Below, piece by piece: positions 11,525-34,249 of a DNA stretch of 34,315 nucleotides. The DNA lies in the NCBI GenBank assembly GCA_944358815.1, contig CALVRX010000039.1, positions 1 through 34,315 on the forward strand. The letters run 5' to 3'. The position numbers were made by a program, and so were the translations under genes. The DNA is from an uncultured Bacilli bacterium. GTDB lineage: Bacteria > Bacillota_I > Bacilli_A > RF39 > UBA660. Within the stretch, counting starts at the first letter, position 1; every line of letters starts with the position of its first letter. The notes under the pieces are model-generated. The model had not been told where the DNA came from. It ran no database searches and saw nothing but the letters and a program-made list of their open reading frames with translations.

Positions 11525-11553
11525 ATTATACTATATTTTATGCTTATTTTCAA
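11525..11553 (-). promoter_or_regulatory. Promoter of the membrane protein-GGDEF-yihY unit
   Basis: Minus strand TTGAAA, 17 bases, TATAAT (-35 11548-11553, -10 11525-11530). It overlaps the last codons of the upstream pilin-like gene. Confidence 0.85.
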
Positions 11554-12150
11554 ACTTCGCTTATCAAATAAGGATTTTCTTTGGTTCCACTTCCACCAAT
11601 TATTTTAGAGGTGTTATGGAGAGTTATAACTGGTCGAATGTTCAACTGCTGTGTTGGAGTGGATGTTTTAAGAGTGCCATTAGAAATAATATAAACATTA
11701 TTATTTATGGTATTGATGGTATATTCTGGACCGTTTTTTATAGAAAAATCTGATAAGTAATTGCCTTTTTGGCATTCTATTTCAGTACCTGTTTGACATT
11801 TTAAATTATTAGATGCATTTAAAAAGTCTTGGGTAGTTAAAAGTCCTATGGTCATATTAATATGCTTTTGACATTCATTTTGAGCAAATTGTAAGCAGAA
11901 ATCTGTTTTTTTGAGTTCTAAATTGTTAAATTCATTATAGAGATTATGATTTAGATATGTATTAATACTGGATGTTTGAAAGTTAGTTTGATTATTGGTA
12001 TCCCATGGCATGGTGGCGATTTTATCATTACTGACGATTTTGATGGATCCGTCTTTATTAAGAGATAAAATACGCCATACGGTATTATTTAATTTTAGAT
12101 AGTTATCTGGATTGCTACCTTTATAAATTCCTGATGTGGCTTTTAGCAGA
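11550..12150 (-). CDS. C-terminal part of the pilin-like surface protein (out of frame)
   Basis: This open frame runs from the ten-A tract to a stop at 11550. Its first ATG is at 12011, but the upstream codons already read as protein (NPDNYLKLNNTVWRILSLNKDGSIKI). That segment closely parallels one in the surface protein at 33-34 kb (NPNNYL.FNNE..GWRIISI..DGTIKI), and both end with a related (R)PVITL / VPAVYL...GG.G...NPY tail. It therefore belongs to the same DUF6273-like, lectin-fold-type domain and is not an independent gene. Four Cys lie in the middle. Adding one A (or removing two) at 12151-12160 joins it to the pilin-like part, giving about 342 residues. Confidence 0.75.
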
Positions 12151-12577
12151 TTTTTTTTTTAGAATTAGCATAAATAGTGTCAGATAAGTTTAGACTGATA
12201 TTGGTTTCTTTAGATGGTTCATCATTATAGGTATAGACATAACTTTTAGTTTCGCTATTATATTTGATTTCGACATTACCATTTAAATTTTCACTACTAT
12301 TACGTGGGTCTTTGACTTCGTCATTAGTGATATAGCCTTCATCGATTAGTTGACTTACTGGAAGTGAATAGACAGAACCGTCATCACTTAATTTAGTGGC
12401 ATTGTCTACGCTCCATTCTTTGGCAGCTGTAATGACAACGTCAACTTGGTCTTTATAAGTTTCTTCTCTAGCATTTCTAATAACAGAACCAACGGCTGGA
12501 TAAACGACTAAAGCTATGAGTCCTAAAATAGCAACTACGGCTACTAATTCTACTAGGGTAAATCCTTTATTTTTCAT
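12143..12577 (-). CDS. Type IV pilin-like protein, N-terminal part before an A10 frameshift
   Basis: The start KMKNKGFTLVELVAVVAILGLIALVVYPA is a class III (prepilin) signal: cleavage Gly-Phe, Glu at +5, then a hydrophobic helix. It continues as a pseudopilin-like domain (IRNAREETYKDQVDVVITAAKEW, then VSQLIDEGYI). At ten A in a row the frame runs into a stop two codons later, leaving about 144 residues. ATG 12577 is chosen because AGGTGAT lies six bases upstream. No prepilin peptidase is in the window. The intended product is probably the fusion with the downstream frame. The break could be a switch, transcriptional slippage, a true mutation or a sequencing error. Confidence 0.8.
   Translation of the reverse strand: MKNKGFTLVELVAVVAILGLIALVVYPAVGSVIRNAREETYKDQVDVVITAAKEWSVDNATKLSDDGSVYSLPVSQLIDEGYITNDEVKDPRNSSENLNGNVEIKYNSETKSYVYTYNDEPSKETNISLNLSDTIYANSKKKIC
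12151..12160 (-). repeat. Homopolymer A10 tract inside the pilin-like gene
   Basis: Ten T on the plus strand are ten A in the coding strand. It sits exactly at the point where the N- and C-terminal frames separate. A length of 8 or 11 would keep one frame open throughout. Confidence 0.9.
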
Positions 12578-12599
12578 TTTCATCACCTATTCTATTTAA

Positions 12600-18058: not shown

Positions 18059-18637
18059 TTATTCAGCTTGGTGAGCTAATGTAGTTACTGAAATGCTTGA
18101 TTCAGTAACAGAACCAACTGACTGAGCATTACCATCGAATGTAGCTGTTACAGTCATTGTAGCAGTTGCACCTTTAGCAATTGAATCTGGATTAGCTGGA
18201 GTTACTGTGAAGATGATATTTCCTTTTTTAACAACTAAATCAGCAGGATTGGTGTCTTCGCCTCCACCGTTTGCTGTAACTTTTGGTTCATCTAATATAG
18301 CAGTAACATTTCCTTCATTCATAATAGTTAAAGTAAATTCTACTGTATCACCTGGCTGATTTAAAGTAGCATTAAGAGTTGCAGTATGTCCTTCATCATC
18401 ATATTCAATAGTTCCGGCTGGAGGTGTTGCTCCACCTGTGCCCATATTAGCAACTACAGCACCACTTGATTCTTTTTTACTTGTATCAAAGTGGACATTC
18501 CAGTTTGTTTTTTCTTCAGTGATGTTAGCTGTACTATTGATAGTTAATGTTTGAGCAAAAGCGGCATAACCTACTGCCATAACAAAGACAACTGCAAGTA
18601 AGGCTCCAATTAGTGCATTTTTGTGTTTGCTTTCCAT
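18059..18637 (-). CDS. TasA/camelysin-like secreted protein 2
   Basis: A 192-residue protein with signal peptide KNALIGALLAVVFVMAVGYAAFAQ. The mature start is TLTINSTANITEEKTNWNVHFDTSKKESSGAV, followed by a Gly-rich turn and the conserved core LNQPGDTVEFTLTIMNEGNVTAILDEP. The end is ESSISVTTLAHQAE. It is a close copy of proteins 3 and 4, differing mainly in an acidic loop after the core (GGGEDTNPADL) that looks like the exposed variable part. It has its own promoter, leader hairpin and terminator, so the copies can be expressed separately. Likely a SipW substrate. Confidence 0.82.
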   Translation of the reverse strand: MESKHKNALIGALLAVVFVMAVGYAAFAQTLTINSTANITEEKTNWNVHFDTSKKESSGAVVANMGTGGATPPAGTIEYDDEGHTATLNATLNQPGDTVEFTLTIMNEGNVTAILDEPKVTANGGGEDTNPADLVVKKGNIIFTVTPANPDSIAKGATATMTVTATFDGNAQSVGSVTESSISVTTLAHQAE

Positions 18638-18687
18638 TTTCGATTTCCCTCCTATAATATTCTAAGTAGTTTCTCTACTCTATATTG

Positions 18688-18716
18688 ATGATACCATAAT
18701 TTGCAAAAGACTTCAA
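18688..18716 (-). promoter_or_regulatory. Promoter of TasA-like gene 2
   Basis: Minus strand TTGAAG, 17 bases, TATCAT with TGG before the -10. The leader carries GTAG-AGAAA-CTAC followed by the AGGAGGG site, nearly identical to the gene 4 leader. Confidence 0.8.
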
Positions 18717-18717
18717 T

Positions 18718-18750
18718 AACAAAAAAAGAAAAACTATGTTAGTTTTTTCC
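18718..18750 (-). terminator. Terminator of TasA-like gene 3
   Basis: Minus strand AAAAACTA-ACA-TAGTTTTT followed by CTTTTTTT. Confidence 0.85.
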
Positions 18751-18768
18751 TTTTTTACACAAATTACA

Positions 18769-18804
18769 TTATTCAGCTTATTCAGCTTATTCAGCTTATT
18801 CAGC
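18769..18804 (-). repeat. Four tandem 9-bp units repeating Ala-Glu-stop
   Basis: On the coding strand GCTGAATAA occurs four times in a row. Because the unit is nine bases, each copy reads Ala-Glu-stop in the gene frame. Only the first stop is used, so three spare in-frame stops follow. TasA-like gene 2 has a single copy at the same place. Confidence 0.9.
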
Positions 18805-19374
18805 TTGGTGAGCTAATGTAGTTACTGAAATACTTGATTCAGTAACAGATCCAACTGACTGTGCATTAGCATCGAATGTAGCTGTTACAGTCATTGTAGC
18901 AGTTGAACCTTTAGCAATTGAATTTGGTGTAGCTGAAGTTACATTAAAGATGATATTTCCTTTTTTAACAACTAATAGATCTTCATCTTCGTCAGTACCT
19001 TCACCGTTGGCTGTAACTTGTGGTTCATCTAATATAGCAGTAACATTTCCTTCATTCATAATGGTTAAAGTAAATTTTACTGTATCACCTGGCTGATTTA
19101 AAGTAGCATTAAGAGTTGCAGTATGTCCTTCTCCATCATAGGTAATAGTTCCTTTTGGAGCTACAGCACCACCTGTTCCCATATTAGCTTCTACAGCACC
19201 ACTTGATTCATTTTTAGTTGTGTCATAGTGAACATTCCAGTTTGTTTTTTCATCAGTAACTGTAGCTGTACTGTTGATAGTTAATTGTTGTGCGAAAGCG
19301 GCATAACCTACTGCCATAACTAAAATAACTGCTACTAATGATACGATTAATGTGTTTTTGTATTTACTTTCCAT
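18796..19374 (-). CDS. TasA/camelysin-like secreted protein 3
   Basis: 192 residues when started at ATG 19374, which follows AAGGAAGG by six bases; the frame opens seven codons earlier without a site of its own. Signal peptide KNTLIVSLVAVILVMAVGYAAFAQ. The mature start is QLTINSTATVTDEKTNWNVHYDTTKNESSGAV, with core LNQPGDTVKFTLTIMNEGNVTAILDEP. The variable acidic loop here is GEGTDEDEDLLVV. The rest is nearly the same as protein 2, including the ESSISVTTLAHQAE end. Recent tandem duplication is the simplest explanation. Likely exported, SipW-processed and surface-located. Confidence 0.82.
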   Translation of the reverse strand: MESKYKNTLIVSLVAVILVMAVGYAAFAQQLTINSTATVTDEKTNWNVHYDTTKNESSGAVEANMGTGGAVAPKGTITYDGEGHTATLNATLNQPGDTVKFTLTIMNEGNVTAILDEPQVTANGEGTDEDEDLLVVKKGNIIFNVTSATPNSIAKGSTATMTVTATFDANAQSVGSVTESSISVTTLAHQAE

Positions 19375-19419
19375 GTTTTCCTTCCTTTCTCTCAAGTAGC
19401 TTTTCTCTACTCTTAATTT

Positions 19420-19448
19420 AATATATCATTTTTTTTATAGGTTATCAA
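19420..19448 (-). promoter_or_regulatory. Promoter of TasA-like gene 3
   Basis: Minus strand TTGATA, 17 bases, TATATT. The leader has a variant hairpin GTAGAGAAAAGCTAC. Confidence 0.78.
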
Positions 19449-19453
19449 GATAC

Positions 19454-19487
19454 AAAAAAAGAAAAGCTATAAAAAGTTTTTCTTTTT
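19454..19487 (-). terminator. Terminator of TasA-like gene 4
   Basis: Minus strand AAAGAAAA / TTTTCTTT with inner CT/AG pairs, followed by more T. Confidence 0.7.
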
Positions 19488-19495
19488 TACACATA

Positions 19496-20074
19496 TTAGG
19501 CACCAGCTTGGTGAGCTAATGTAGTGACTGAAATAGTAGCAGTATTGACATCACCTACTGACTCAGCAGTAGAATCAAATTCAGCAGTTACAGTCATTGT
19601 AGCAGTTTCCCCTTTAGCAATTGAACCTGGTGTAGCTGAAGTTACTGTGAAGATGATATTTCCACTTTTTACTTTCATTGGATCATCAGGTAATTCATCA
19701 TCGCCATCAAATGAAACTTTTGCTGGATCTAATACAGCAGTAACAGCGCCTTCATTCATAACAGTTAAAGTATACAATACTTTGTCGCCTGGCTGATTTA
19801 AAGTAGCCTTAAGAGTTGCAGTATGTCCTTCTCCATCATAGGTAATAGTTCCTGCTGGAGCTACAGCACCACCAGTTCCCATAGTAGCACTTACGGCACC
19901 AGTTGATTCTTTTTTACTTGTATCAAAGTGAACATTCCAGTTTGTTTTTTCATTAGTAACTGTAGCTGTACTGTTGATAGTTAGTGTTTGAGCAAATGCG
20001 GCATAACCTACTGCCATAACTAAAATAACTGCTACTAATGCGACAATTAACGCATTTTTGTGTCTAGTTTCCAT
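19496..20074 (-). CDS. TasA/camelysin-like secreted protein 4
   Basis: A 192-residue paralog with signal peptide KNALIVALVAVILVMAVGYAAFAQ and mature start TLTINSTATVTNEKTNWNVHFDTSKKESTGAV. The core is LNQPGDKVLYTLTVMNEGAVTAVLDPAKV and the acidic loop DGDDELPDDPMKV. It ends SVTTLAHQAGA, one residue beyond proteins 2 and 3. It is the most upstream copy of the array and has its own promoter. The AGGAGGG site and leader match gene 2 almost base for base. A role as a SipW-dependent fibre subunit is inferred. Confidence 0.82.
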   Translation of the reverse strand: METRHKNALIVALVAVILVMAVGYAAFAQTLTINSTATVTNEKTNWNVHFDTSKKESTGAVSATMGTGGAVAPAGTITYDGEGHTATLKATLNQPGDKVLYTLTVMNEGAVTAVLDPAKVSFDGDDELPDDPMKVKSGNIIFTVTSATPGSIAKGETATMTVTAEFDSTAESVGDVNTATISVTTLAHQAGA

Positions 20075-20120
20075 TTTTTCCCTCCTATAATATTCTAAGT
20101 AGTTTCCCTACTCTATTACG

Positions 20121-30512: not shown

Positions 30513-30544
30513 ATAAAAAAAAGCTTCTGAGAGAAAGAAGCTTT
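30513..30544 (-). terminator. Terminator of the two-component operon
   Basis: Minus strand AAGCTTCT-TTCTCTC-AGAAGCTT followed by TTTTTTTATAA. It overlaps the histidine kinase stop. Confidence 0.88.
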
Positions 30545-31802
30545 ATTTTATTGTAAAGGTAATGCCAACGCGTTCGTTTTTGACAGTGACTTCATACCCT
30601 AGTAGGGATAGGGTTCTTTTTACAATTGAAAGTCCCAAACCGAACTGTCCGTTGATACCTTTTTTATAAGGAGTAAACATGTCATTTAAAATGTCTTCAT
30701 CGATATTTGGTCCATCGTTATAAAAGGTAATACGATGGTTTTTAACCGTAATTTTAATTTCTTTTTGGGCATATCTTGTGAAATTACTTAAGATATTATC
30801 AATAATGGCTTCCCAATTGTCTTCAGAACCTTTGAAGACTGTTTTTTTATCCAAAATATCGATTTGCCATTTAATATCTGGCCTTGTCATTTTAAATTTG
30901 GATACGGAAGATTCTAGTATATCGACGATATTTATTTCGCCGCTAGTATAATTTTCCATATCTTTAAAATACGTTAATTTATTTAAATATAGTAAGGAGT
31001 GTACTTTTATTTCTAATTTTTTTATTTCTTGTTTTATTATTTTTAGTCCATCTTTTTCACTTTCCACGCCATCTTCGATTGCCTCAATATATGATCTTAT
31101 AACGGTGAGAGGGGTTTTAAAATCATGAGAAATATTTTGATACATTTGGTTTTTATATTCATCTTGTTTATGTAGGGTAAGTTTCATCTCGTCGATGGCT
31201 TTAGATAGGACTTTTAGTTCGTCATCTACTTTATATTTATATTTATCGACATAGTTATCATTATCTAAGTTATCAACTTTTTCTTTTAGATGACGAATTT
31301 TTTGGGCGAGCGACTGACTCCACCAAGCTACTATGGCAAGCATTAGTAGCAAGGTAATTAATAGAACCGGGAATAAGGCTTCTATTATGTCAGAACGCAT
31401 TTGATGGACATAGTCATCATTGGTGAGGGCTATTTTATGTTCTTGTCCATCATGTATTGTATTATAGTAGTAAGTTTTGCCATGGTAATTAAATTTACCA
31501 TATTCATTTTTTATGTTTTCTATAATTTGTTTAGCTGGCAGATCAATTAATTTTGTTAAGTTACTAGATGTTGTGATAGTGTCATTTTTGACATATAGAT
31601 AAGCAATGGAGCTATCTATTTCGGTTTGTGAGAAGTCGGAACGTACAACATCTAAAGGAGTTTTCAAGTATAAATATATATTTTTTTCATAAATTGGTAT
31701 TAAGACTTTTGGGAGTATAATCGCAATACTTATGTATATGAGGGCGAACATGATAAGGACTATGGTTAAGACTTGTCTATATAGGTTATGTCTTAGTTTC
31801 AT
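30543..31802 (-). CDS. Sensor histidine kinase
   Basis: A 419-residue membrane kinase. The first helix (about 9-32) and second helix (about 140-160) flank an outside sensor of about 105 residues. A HAMP-like linker and dimerisation helix follow, with the phosphorylated His in NISHDFKTPLTVIRSY near 225. The catalytic domain has N box NILSNFTRYA, G1 FYNDGPNIDED and G2 GQFGLGLSIVKRTL. The outside domain is not recognisable, so the signal is unknown. It overlaps the response regulator by four bases (ATGA) and ends in a terminator. A role in envelope sensing is only a guess. Confidence 0.92.
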   Translation of the reverse strand: MKLRHNLYRQVLTIVLIMFALIYISIAIILPKVLIPIYEKNIYLYLKTPLDVVRSDFSQTEIDSSIAYLYVKNDTITTSSNLTKLIDLPAKQIIENIKNEYGKFNYHGKTYYYNTIHDGQEHKIALTNDDYVHQMRSDIIEALFPVLLITLLLMLAIVAWWSQSLAQKIRHLKEKVDNLDNDNYVDKYKYKVDDELKVLSKAIDEMKLTLHKQDEYKNQMYQNISHDFKTPLTVIRSYIEAIEDGVESEKDGLKIIKQEIKKLEIKVHSLLYLNKLTYFKDMENYTSGEINIVDILESSVSKFKMTRPDIKWQIDILDKKTVFKGSEDNWEAIIDNILSNFTRYAQKEIKITVKNHRITFYNDGPNIDEDILNDMFTPYKKGINGQFGLGLSIVKRTLSLLGYEVTVKNERVGITFTIK

Positions 31803-32452
31803 GATAATCTATATCCATATCCGTAGATTGTATTTAATCTAAGTTTAGGCATTTTTTTTCTAAGTCTTCTGACTAAATCATCTACTACCCTATCACTACC
31901 AAAGTAGTCATTTCCCCAAACTGTTTCTAAGATATGGCTTCGCGAAAAAGATTTTTTTCTATTTTTGACAAACATTAATAATAAATCAAATTCTAAAGTA
32001 GTGAGAGAAAGTTCTTTAGGACCGTCTTTTACTAATCTTTTATCAATATCTATTTCGTAACTGTCATATTTAATTTTTTGGGTTTGCCCCATATAAGTTC
32101 TTTTTATAATATTATTTACTCTTAATACTAATTCTTTTGGTGAATACGGCTTAGTAACATAATCATCACTTCCTAACTCTAAGCCGATTATTTTATCCAA
32201 ATCTTGGTCACGAGCTGAAGTAAATATTACGGGAACTTCACTACTTTCCCTGATTTTTTTGATAATGTCATAGCCACTTACTTCGTCGCCTAACATTATA
32301 TCAAGTATCCATAAGTCAACTTTATCAGTTACGTGATTTAAAGCATCAGTTCCATTATAATATTGGGTTACTTCATATCCTGCTCTTTCTAAATATGATT
32401 TTATTAAGTCATTTAAATTTTTTTCATCTTCAACTAAACAAATTTTATACAT
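31799..32452 (-). CDS. OmpR/PhoB-type response regulator
   Basis: A 217-residue regulator. The receiver domain (1-120) has the acidic pair in LVEDEKN, phospho-acceptor Asp near 52 in LWILDIMLGD, Thr/Ser in IFTSARD and Lys in VTKPYSP. The winged-helix DNA-binding domain (about 125-217) has LSLTTLEFDLLLMFVKN, FSRSHILETVWG, and RVVDDLVRRLRKKM ending YGYGYRLS. It is the first gene of a two-gene operon with the kinase and probably controls its own operon. An extended -10 TGTTATACT lies about 30 bases upstream; no ribosome site of note precedes the ATG. Confidence 0.93.
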   Translation of the reverse strand: MYKICLVEDEKNLNDLIKSYLERAGYEVTQYYNGTDALNHVTDKVDLWILDIMLGDEVSGYDIIKKIRESSEVPVIFTSARDQDLDKIIGLELGSDDYVTKPYSPKELVLRVNNIIKRTYMGQTQKIKYDSYEIDIDKRLVKDGPKELSLTTLEFDLLLMFVKNRKKSFSRSHILETVWGNDYFGSDRVVDDLVRRLRKKMPKLRLNTIYGYGYRLS

Positions 32453-32682
32453 TAGTTATCGCCTCATTTATAGTATAACACTATTTCAGTTTCGGGTCAT
32501 CTATCACGTCCTTTCTAAGAGCTATTTTCCTGCTCTGTAATAATAATACTAAATCATTGTGGAGAAATTTTGATAAAAATATGTGAAATTATGTGAGAAG
32601 GAAAATATTGTTAAAATGCGCTAAAGATAAAGGACGTGTGTTTACTTAAATGTTCTTAATTAGATAAATCGATAATTATATG
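32453..32682. other. Gap between the response regulator and the MutS-like gene
   Basis: About 230 non-coding bases. They hold the extended -10 of the regulator gene (near 32475), a small AGAGC/GCTCT hairpin near 32520, and a perfect 10-base inverted repeat CACGTCCTTT (32505-32514) / AAAGGACGTG (32629-32638). No terminator for the upstream MutS-like gene is clear. Confidence 0.5.
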
Positions 32683-33087
32683 TCATAAAATCTTTTCTAT
32701 TTCATCTAATATGTCATTAATTTTAGAATTGTTTTGTAAAACTTTAAGTCTTTCATATATTTTATTTATTCTATCTTCTATATTTAAGTCATTAGATATG
32801 TATTTATCATAATTGTTTAAATTAAATTTTTTTCTTGTAATTTCATCATTTTCTATAATTAGATAATTAATCTTAAAATTTTTCAATTTTGATATTACTT
32901 TTTCAAAACTACTTATTGGAAACCCTACTCTATTTACTCCATTAACTTCTTTTATTTTGTAGTTAAATAAATTATTTAAAAGATAGACATCTTCTCCATA
33001 TGCTTCATAAAAAATTCCCACTTTTATTAAAATAATATATTTTGGATATTTATTTTTATATATATTATATTTATCTTTTATTTTCAT
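32683..33087 (-). CDS. Free-standing MutS domain I-like protein
   Basis: The 134-residue protein matches the first (mismatch-reading) domain of MutS: KYPKYIILIKVGIFYEAYGEDVYLLNNLF corresponds to 'PD.ILLFRMGDFYE.F.EDA....L', then VGFPISSFEKVISKLKNFKINYLIIE to 'GVP....D.YI.KL...G..VAI.EQ'. No clamp, lever or ATPase domain follows. The last 40 residues look like a coiled helix (NIEDRINKIYERLKVLQNN). It cannot do repair alone. As I recall, MutS-like small proteins are among accessory proteins of diversity-generating retroelements, which fits the next gene upstream. The ATG has AAAGGAG; a promoter-terminator leader precedes it. Confidence 0.72.
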   Translation of the reverse strand: MKIKDKYNIYKNKYPKYIILIKVGIFYEAYGEDVYLLNNLFNYKIKEVNGVNRVGFPISSFEKVISKLKNFKINYLIIENDEITRKKFNLNNYDKYISNDLNIEDRINKIYERLKVLQNNSKINDILDEIEKIL

Positions 33088-33104
33088 AAAACTTACTCCT
33101 TTAC

Positions 33105-33148
33105 AAAAAAAACAGTATCAAGCGAAGGTCAAAGCCTTGTTGGTACTG
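33105..33148 (-). terminator. Terminator hairpin in the leader of the MutS-like gene
   Basis: Minus strand CAGTA/TACTG, CAA/TTG and AAGG/CCTT stacked with small bulges, then eight T. It lies only about 10-15 bases after the expected transcription start and 18 bases before the start codon. It would release an RNA of about 50 bases unless read through. Confidence 0.75.
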
Positions 33149-33164
33149 CTTAAAACTTTTTTTA

Positions 33165-33193
33165 ATTATATCATATCTTTTTAAATATTACAA
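33165..33193 (-). promoter_or_regulatory. Promoter of the MutS-like gene leader
   Basis: Minus strand TTGTAA, 17 bases, TATAAT with TG before the -10. Confidence 0.85.
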
Positions 33194-33319
33194 AATATTT
33201 AATATAATTAATGCTTTTCGATTATATTAATTCATAAACTATATTGTTTTAAAGAAAACTATTGTTACAATGATCAAAATTAGGTGTTAAATCAAATGGA
33301 TTATTTTTATTATTTTATA
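33194..33319. other. AT-rich gap between the surface protein and MutS-like gene
   Basis: It contains an AT-rich inverted repeat (TTAATATAAT / ATTATATTAA, 12-base gap, near 33197-33230) and a loose direct repeat AAACTATATTGTT / AAACTATTGTT. No reading frame and no copy of the 3' end of the surface protein gene (template repeat) can be seen by eye. Confidence 0.45.
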
Positions 33320-34249
33320 TTATCCTAAGGTATATGGATTTGTCTGGTTTCCATTTCCTCCAGTAATTTTGACATTAGAATTTAGATATACAGCTGGAAC
33401 GGTACTCAAAGAGTTGATGGAAGTGTTTTCAGGAATTATTTCACTGAATTGACTAATATATAACACGCTGTCAGAGCTGCCAGCAAGGGGCGTTAAAGTC
33501 CACCATGGATTGATATGCATCCATGTAGTGTTTTTACATGTATTATGATTGTTATTTAGTTTGCTAAAAGTATTACAATCAGTATCTAGATTTGTTCTTA
33601 TATATTCACTTAATGTTGGTAAGGCTATCTTTCCATTCCATTTCTTACTATTTTCATCATTTATCTGATCTGCTAAATCATTATTATTACGTGTTACTGC
33701 GCCTATACTATAATCGTGTGATACTATTTGGCTTTTGGCAGTATTGCTCAAGCTGTTATAATATGTTCCATTTAAATATGTGTTTAATGTGGCAGGGCGT
33801 GACCAATCATTGAAGTTAGCTGCATCCCACGCTATATTTCCTATACTATCTATTTTCATTATTTTTATAGTTCCATCGTCTTCGATTGATATGATTCGCC
33901 AACCGGCTGTTTCATTATTAAATGTCAAATAATTATTTGGATTTTTTCCTCTATAAAAATATCTATCTTCATATTCATCTTTATATAGGCCATCGCCTGT
34001 TGTTACTATTTGTATTTTATCAAGTATTGTACCACCTGATGTTGGTGGCTTAGCTATACAGGTATTATAAAGTTCATCGATAGCTCCTTGTACTTCTGTA
34101 GCACTCATGCCACTTGTAGAATGATCATAGGTTATTCTATTACTTGCGATATAGGTAGCGGCATATACTCCACCTATGCCAAAGACAAATATTCCTAGTA
34201 TTATTCCGATTAAATATTTTTTGGAAAACATTTCGACATTTTTCTTCAT
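33320..34249 (-). CDS. Surface protein with DUF6273-like C-terminus, candidate DGR target
   Basis: A 309-residue protein with N-terminal membrane anchor or signal (KKYLIGIILGIFVFGIGGVYAATYI), a short linker with SGMSATEVQGAIDELYNTC, then a domain starting near 105 (NNYLTFNNETAGWRIISIEDDGTIKIM) that is shared with the pilin-like protein at 11.5-12.6 kb. The C-terminus WWTLTPLAGSSDSVLYIS, then VPAVYLNSNVKITGGNGNQTNPYTL, has the layout of C-type-lectin-fold variable regions in diversity-generating retroelement targets. The coding segment 33462-33492 is unusually GC-rich (about 20 of 31). ATG 34249 follows GGGGAG. Surface binding is inferred. Confidence 0.72.
   Translation of the reverse strand: MKKNVEMFSKKYLIGIILGIFVFGIGGVYAATYIASNRITYDHSTSGMSATEVQGAIDELYNTCIAKPPTSGGTILDKIQIVTTGDGLYKDEYEDRYFYRGKNPNNYLTFNNETAGWRIISIEDDGTIKIMKIDSIGNIAWDAANFNDWSRPATLNTYLNGTYYNSLSNTAKSQIVSHDYSIGAVTRNNNDLADQINDENSKKWNGKIALPTLSEYIRTNLDTDCNTFSKLNNNHNTCKNTTWMHINPWWTLTPLAGSSDSVLYISQFSEIIPENTSINSLSTVPAVYLNSNVKITGGNGNQTNPYTLG

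Follow-up and report, generated by a model that had tools for sequence, protein, structure and literature searches.

Probable remains of a degenerate DGR: a DUF6273 surface gene beside a MutS-like accessory gene in an uncultured Bacilli genome

The window analyzed here, a stretch of 34,315 bp comprising the whole of contig C39 in an uncultured Bacilli assembly (1.05 Mb, 63.3% complete), carries near its end a surface-protein gene and, after it on the same strand, a small MutS-like (MSL) gene. This locus is very probably a degenerate diversity-generating retroelement (DGR) and not an intact one. Its remaining parts are homologous to, and collinear with, those of intact cassettes, one congener has such a cassette at the orthologous site, and the missing parts can be named: the body of the template repeat (TR), avd and the reverse transcriptase (RT) gene. 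Relatives moreover display adenine-specific pairs of TR and variable repeat (VR), and targets that match a template in trans. On the present assembly, an intact DGR at this site is excluded. An initial annotation of the sequence had suggested a DGR target next to an accessory gene and had offered a remote target or a cassette remnant as readings; the target-TR-MSL-Avd-RT order of relatives, a homologous spacer and a TR-MSL-Avd-RT cassette at the orthologous site of congener G028 all support the latter. Features of the locus are collected in Table 1.

Table 1. Coordinates of the target-MSL locus and its flank in the window.
Feature	Position	Strand	Remarks
DGR target gene	33320..34249	(-)	309 aa; N-terminal hydrophobic leader and DUF6273 domain
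VR equivalent	33392..33496	(-)	aligned to templates of G002 and G020
Possible relic of TR 5' edge and leader	33262..33314	(-)	shuffle test, MAFFT alignment; template body missing
TCTCTAAAACACTATGGTTTATGAACTAATATGGTCAT-like element, directly after TR in relatives	33205..33255	(-)	alignment
TR-to-MSL spacer	33088..33199	(-)	inverted repeat 33110-33151, then T run
MSL accessory gene	32683..33087	(-)	134 aa, intact, MutS domain I only
Junction zone without avd and RT	32609..32682	(-)	G028 has both between MSL and conserved block
Conserved block 5' of response regulator	32456..32608	(-)	76-86% in 11 congeners; orthologous-site marker
Response regulator (31799-32452) and histidine kinase (30543-31802)	30543..32452	(-)	positional anchor, outside DGR

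Both open reading frames occur where they were first placed, encoding a DUF6273 domain and a MutS domain I, respectively. DUF6273 spans residues 153-278 of the surface protein (25 bits versus a Pfam cut-off of 23.5), and the motif WWTLTP...VPAVYL...PYTLG is present. According to two reports, DUF6273 domains are targets of phage DGRs with the VR at the C-terminus (PMC10743442, PMC11792537). The window target resembles these in having its VR at the C-terminal end of the domain, and differs in that the genes here belong to bacterial assemblies and encode a leader helix, and MSL relatives were not encountered among viral contigs. The domain is reported as C-type-lectin-like, and the fold of the target is known here from the DUF6273 literature only; an AlphaFold2 model (pLDDT 44.3 from an alignment of 9 sequences, with no PDB match at E <= 0.001) was set aside as unusable.

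The MSL protein matches the MutS domain I profile with 36.4 bits (cut-off 20.6, E 6.6e-9), and its AlphaFold2 model (pLDDT 85.8, 30 sequences) has MutS chains as top PDB matches (E 1.9e-6). Phe26, which presumably corresponds to the mismatch-wedging Phe of MutS, and Tyr27 are invariant in 30/30 aligned sequences, and Glu28 is present in 10/30. Pairwise dN/dS against four relatives ranges from 0.057 to 0.134, ratios that are rough because dS exceeds 1. These low values may mostly reflect time preceding the loss of other parts; it is also possible that MSL is still in use in the window lineage. Since none of 600 pattern matches in viral contigs was confirmed as an MSL relative, a phage origin of the gene is unsupported. 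The initial statement that MutS-like proteins are one type of DGR accessory protein agrees with the literature, which lists MSL (PF01624) together with HRDC among the established accessory proteins (PMC10053308). Like the MSL-bearing DGRs described there, those of relatives have a lone MutS domain I beside Avd and RT; the window differs in that its MSL adjoins a target without Avd, RT or TR.

A search of 148 genomes returned 64 MSL matches in 46 genomes. A DGR-type RT lies within 3 kb of 52 of the 64, on the same strand in 51 of those 52, and a layout of target stop, TR and MSL recurs in cassettes whose TR/VR pairs are truly adenine-specific. The proposed pairing of target and MSL is thus not a matter of chance. 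Through these relatives a stand-alone MutS domain I is linked to a DGR RT; the window itself contains no such linkage. As first noted, no RT open reading frame adjoins the window genes, and the window contains no adenine-biased TR for the target. Among the 12 matches without RT, two lie within long frames of 830 and 467 aa and are possibly not MSL, and another (G031:C13), RT-less by the 3-kb count, proved on closer inspection to have Avd and an RT fragment. Locus G007:C30 consists of target and MSL as in the window, with TR and RT not found. The 41 named loci come from uncultured Bacilli, Tenericutes, Mycoplasmatota, Clostridium, Ruminococcus, Candidatus Caccenecus and similar metagenome-assembled genomes; their fetched flanks yielded an RT match in 38 (three on the opposite strand, and that of L211 weak) and an Avd match in 37. 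Target-TR-MSL-Avd-RT is the commonest order, with L143 (Avd-RT-MSL) as an exception. An adenine-biased TR/VR pair was detected in 19 of 40 loci scanned, with 319/359 mismatches at template adenines; many of the other 21 loci have too little DNA 5' of MSL to hold a target.

Within the 232 bp separating target and MSL in the window, the MSL side aligns to the TR-to-MSL spacers of G004, G020 and G002 (nhmmer E 3.7e-10, 1e-6 and 3.8e-6, respectively), and the 5' part aligns with an element found immediately 3' of the TR in eight loci. A relic of the TR 5' edge next to this element is possible but uncertain, its alignment being reached by 0/300 shuffles with G020 but by 37/300 with G002. Putative TR edges alone remain; the TR body and its structured leader are missing. 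The inverted repeat of the spacer has a folding z of -0.18 in the window versus -3.25 in G020, and since the window repeat folds no better than shuffles, a strong terminator at this position 5' of MSL is unsupported in the window, although folding does support one in G020.

Congener G028 carries a TR-MSL-Avd-RT cassette directly 5' of the same regulator/kinase pair, whose proteins are 93% (response regulator) and 85% (histidine kinase) identical to those of the window. The first 860 bases of the G028 sequence hold an apparent target end, DUF6273-like and just 5' of the TR, then a template with Asn-type codons and the inverted repeat, followed by MSL. At the other end, the matched part of RT stops 17 bp short of the conserved block. 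The G028 copy may be failing too, because its RT carries an internal stop. The site is not always occupied, since MSL, Avd and RT went unmatched there in the remaining 10 congeners fetched; three of these 10 carry DUF6273 genes nearby in the contig stretch fetched, and in two of the three the gene lies immediately 5' of the site, separated from it by a different small gene. Independent insertions in G028 and in the window might also be proposed, yet the two loci have both spacer and order in common, which favors loss, and we infer that the missing parts were removed by deletion rather than being absent from a different insertion.

The ancestral cassette, of which relatives retain complete versions, would have comprised a surface gene with a 3' VR, followed by TR, MSL, Avd and RT, 5' of the two-component pair. 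By the known DGR pathway, its template RNA would have been copied by RT and Avd, perhaps with MSL, with errors at adenines, and the cDNA would have replaced the VR of the surface gene, altering the ligand-binding face; the role of MSL in these steps is putative. In the window lineage, one deletion would have taken most of the TR with the structured leader and another avd and RT, leaving the target and MSL reading frames intact. The target is one member of a large dispersed DUF6273 family, and in a relative targets of this kind are rewritten in trans by one template.

The variable region was initially placed at 33330-33510. The VR does lie inside that span, and its equivalent is narrower, with the approximate limits of Table 1. 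Compared with the G002 template, the window VR is mismatched at 18/30 adenines versus 20/49 other positions (p 0.077), and compared with that of G020 at 20/35 versus 25/65 (p 0.057), so that adenine bias relative to either template is not significant. The window VR has drifted; most likely it is frozen, or its last rewriting dates far back, and the locus appears to be inactive at present. Counting against the degenerate-DGR reading are this lack of significant bias, the weak TR relic, a hairpin no stabler than shuffles, and the intactness and low dN/dS of MSL, a gene that a fully dead cassette could dispense with.

The surface-protein family has 44 matches in the same genome, many of them leader-only fragments. 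A single template behind every one of the genome's 18 VR-like ends was rejected, as only three of them (C13, C40 and C15a) show a bias at p < 0.01 when compared with the template of G002. Mismatch of these paralogues to the template is not raised at template-adenine columns (p 0.38). At C21:1-743 (L232) lies a second, internally deleted copy of the end of the window target, and no MSL is present in the 107 bp between it and the contig end. By sequence comparison, variation between the two copies is concentrated in the VR (43/102 identical), with the intergenic part at 150/160, the last codons at 57/61 and stretches further 5' at 47/64 and 95/120; strain mixture in the assembly is a possible source of the difference. 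The window contig itself ends within sequence common to both copies.

Recombination in the form of gene conversion among dispersed paralogues, and not reverse transcription, might now drive DUF6273 variation, the DGR parts being fossils. This proposal concerns the present driver of variation and is compatible with a degenerate DGR; we regard it as a real possibility, although an unlikely one. It would account for the divergent VR within near-identical flanks and the internal deletion of the C21 copy, for leaders common to paralogues (92% to C10) and for the many leader-only fragments. Nevertheless, rewriting by different DGR templates would also yield divergent VRs within conserved flanks, and alignment columns of the paralogues are more diverse where the template has adenine (mean 0.677) than elsewhere (0.547, p 3e-6).

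The DGR reading of the initial annotation hinged in part on a DGR-type RT somewhere in the genome, and because contig C41 carries one, though truncated, the reading holds on this point. This sole RVT_1 match in the genome scores 264 bits against phrog_1423, and its best PDB match is 8ub7 (E 1.4e-23), which we take to be the BPP-1 DGR RT. It resembles that enzyme in the RT core, with the motifs LPIGNETSQ and YMDDF, and is DGR-like; it differs in lacking about 40 N-terminal residues that are present in relatives. The truncation results from a deletion, with 3,188 nt of G002:C4 missing from C41 and covering most of a target, an avd, a 213-aa open reading frame and the first ~40 RT codons. Assignments as a defence RT (Padloc matches) or as a group II or Drt enzyme (NCBIfam, all below curated cut-off) were set aside, as phrog_1423 and 8ub7 fit better. 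A second cassette type was observed at L128-L135 (G042, G022, G029, G011, G014, G002, G030 and G007), with large targets, Avd, an uncharacterized open reading frame of ~208-219 aa between Avd and RT, and an RT 58-79% identical to that of C41. No TR emerged from genome searches that used templates of either cassette type as well as that of G002 itself; these returned only the VR-like C13 site, the window spacer, its counterpart on C21 (E 0.02) and short weak matches. Avd likewise went undetected in the genome with a query that matches 37/41 of the named loci. Because the assembly is 63.3% complete, an intact cassette elsewhere is possible.

In G002, three templates, on C1, C2 and C4, are identical over 112 nt, the C4 template belonging to an orphan target-TR pair (C4:29000-34500, L171) whose fetched surroundings contain no MSL, Avd or RT. 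VRs on C1, C4, C20 and C39 of that genome are changed at 20, 18, 17 and 18 of 36 template adenines, and at 1, 1, 0 and 0 of 66 other positions, giving pooled values of 73/144 versus 2/264. VR matches in G004, G012, G018, G020 and G027 are adenine-biased and less exact, as expected for a related template. Since four dispersed G002 targets match one template except at adenines, these sequences indicate that trans diversification occurs in the genus.

Trans rewriting of the window VR is possible in principle. The target-MSL unit could be a functional satellite that still undergoes rewriting in trans, driven by an intact TR-Avd-RT cassette located in the 37% of the genome missing from the assembly, with MSL kept for help at the target site. 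G002 supplies precedents: a TR-MSL-Avd-RT cassette on C2 without a matched adjacent target coexists with dispersed, trans-matched targets, and C1 bears target-TR-MSL without avd or RT, its VR nonetheless changed at 20/36 adenines versus 1/66 other positions. The low MSL dN/dS and the incomplete assembly also suit this explanation. Against it, searches of this genome yielded neither TR nor avd, its single RT is truncated and the window VR lacks a freshly templated look, and we consider it improbable. Slightly more doubtful again is the general scheme in which RT-less target-(TR)-MSL units would be functional satellites, each genome would rely on a single TR-MSL-Avd-RT cassette to rewrite its dispersed DUF6273 repertoire in trans, and satellite MSL would be under selection, acting locally on TR/VR heteroduplexes. 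Least credible, to the point of being very nearly dismissed, is that the two genes are unrelated, chance having placed a DUF6273 gene that no DGR ever targeted next to a stray gene for a MutS domain: abundant paralogues (44 in the genome) and the non-significant VR bias allow for it, but it is already contradicted by intergenic DNA homologous to the post-TR spacer of DGR cassettes, by identical order in cassettes with adenine-specific repeats and by the DGR at the same chromosomal site in G028.

For other bacteria, the literature already describes DGR loci that are degenerate or act in trans. In Thiohalocapsa PB-PSB1 (PMC10907252), degenerate loci and trans activity are reported, and, as here, there are several loci, some without key machinery, and remote VRs whose departures from one TR fall at adenines; our case differs in its small-genome uncultured Bacilli, MSL-type cassettes and many DUF6273 surface targets per genome. 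Remote DGR targets escape metagenome surveys, according to another study (PMC8144416). Our literature search, whose reach excluded most subscription journals, turned up no publication that treats DGRs in this group of bacteria. These results show DGR cassettes in the small genomes of uncultured gut Bacilli, together with a large dispersed surface-protein family that is rewritten in trans by a single template in at least one species. Decayed loci offer snapshots of part-by-part cassette loss in which targets and MSL persist, and through them the role of MSL, a MutS mismatch-recognition domain beside a mutagenic retroelement, becomes testable.

Several further observations concern the surface-protein family and repeats. 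On C15, C18, C23, C40 and C41, leader-only open reading frames (~65 aa, with the surface-protein leader) lie directly 5' of full-length paralogues on the same strand. The window also encodes, at 11550-12128, a DUF6273-like C-terminal fragment (30% identity) ending RPVITLHNTSKIIGGSGTKENPYLI, preceded by a gene at 12143-12586 with a prepilin-like N-terminus (MKNKGFTLVELVAVVAILGLIALVVYP). Positions 1-363, at the contig start, form a tandem repeat with a period of ~36 bp (also 18) that is open in several frames, and three tandem gene copies of ~192-199 aa, with DNA identity of 84-87%, occupy 18059-20086.
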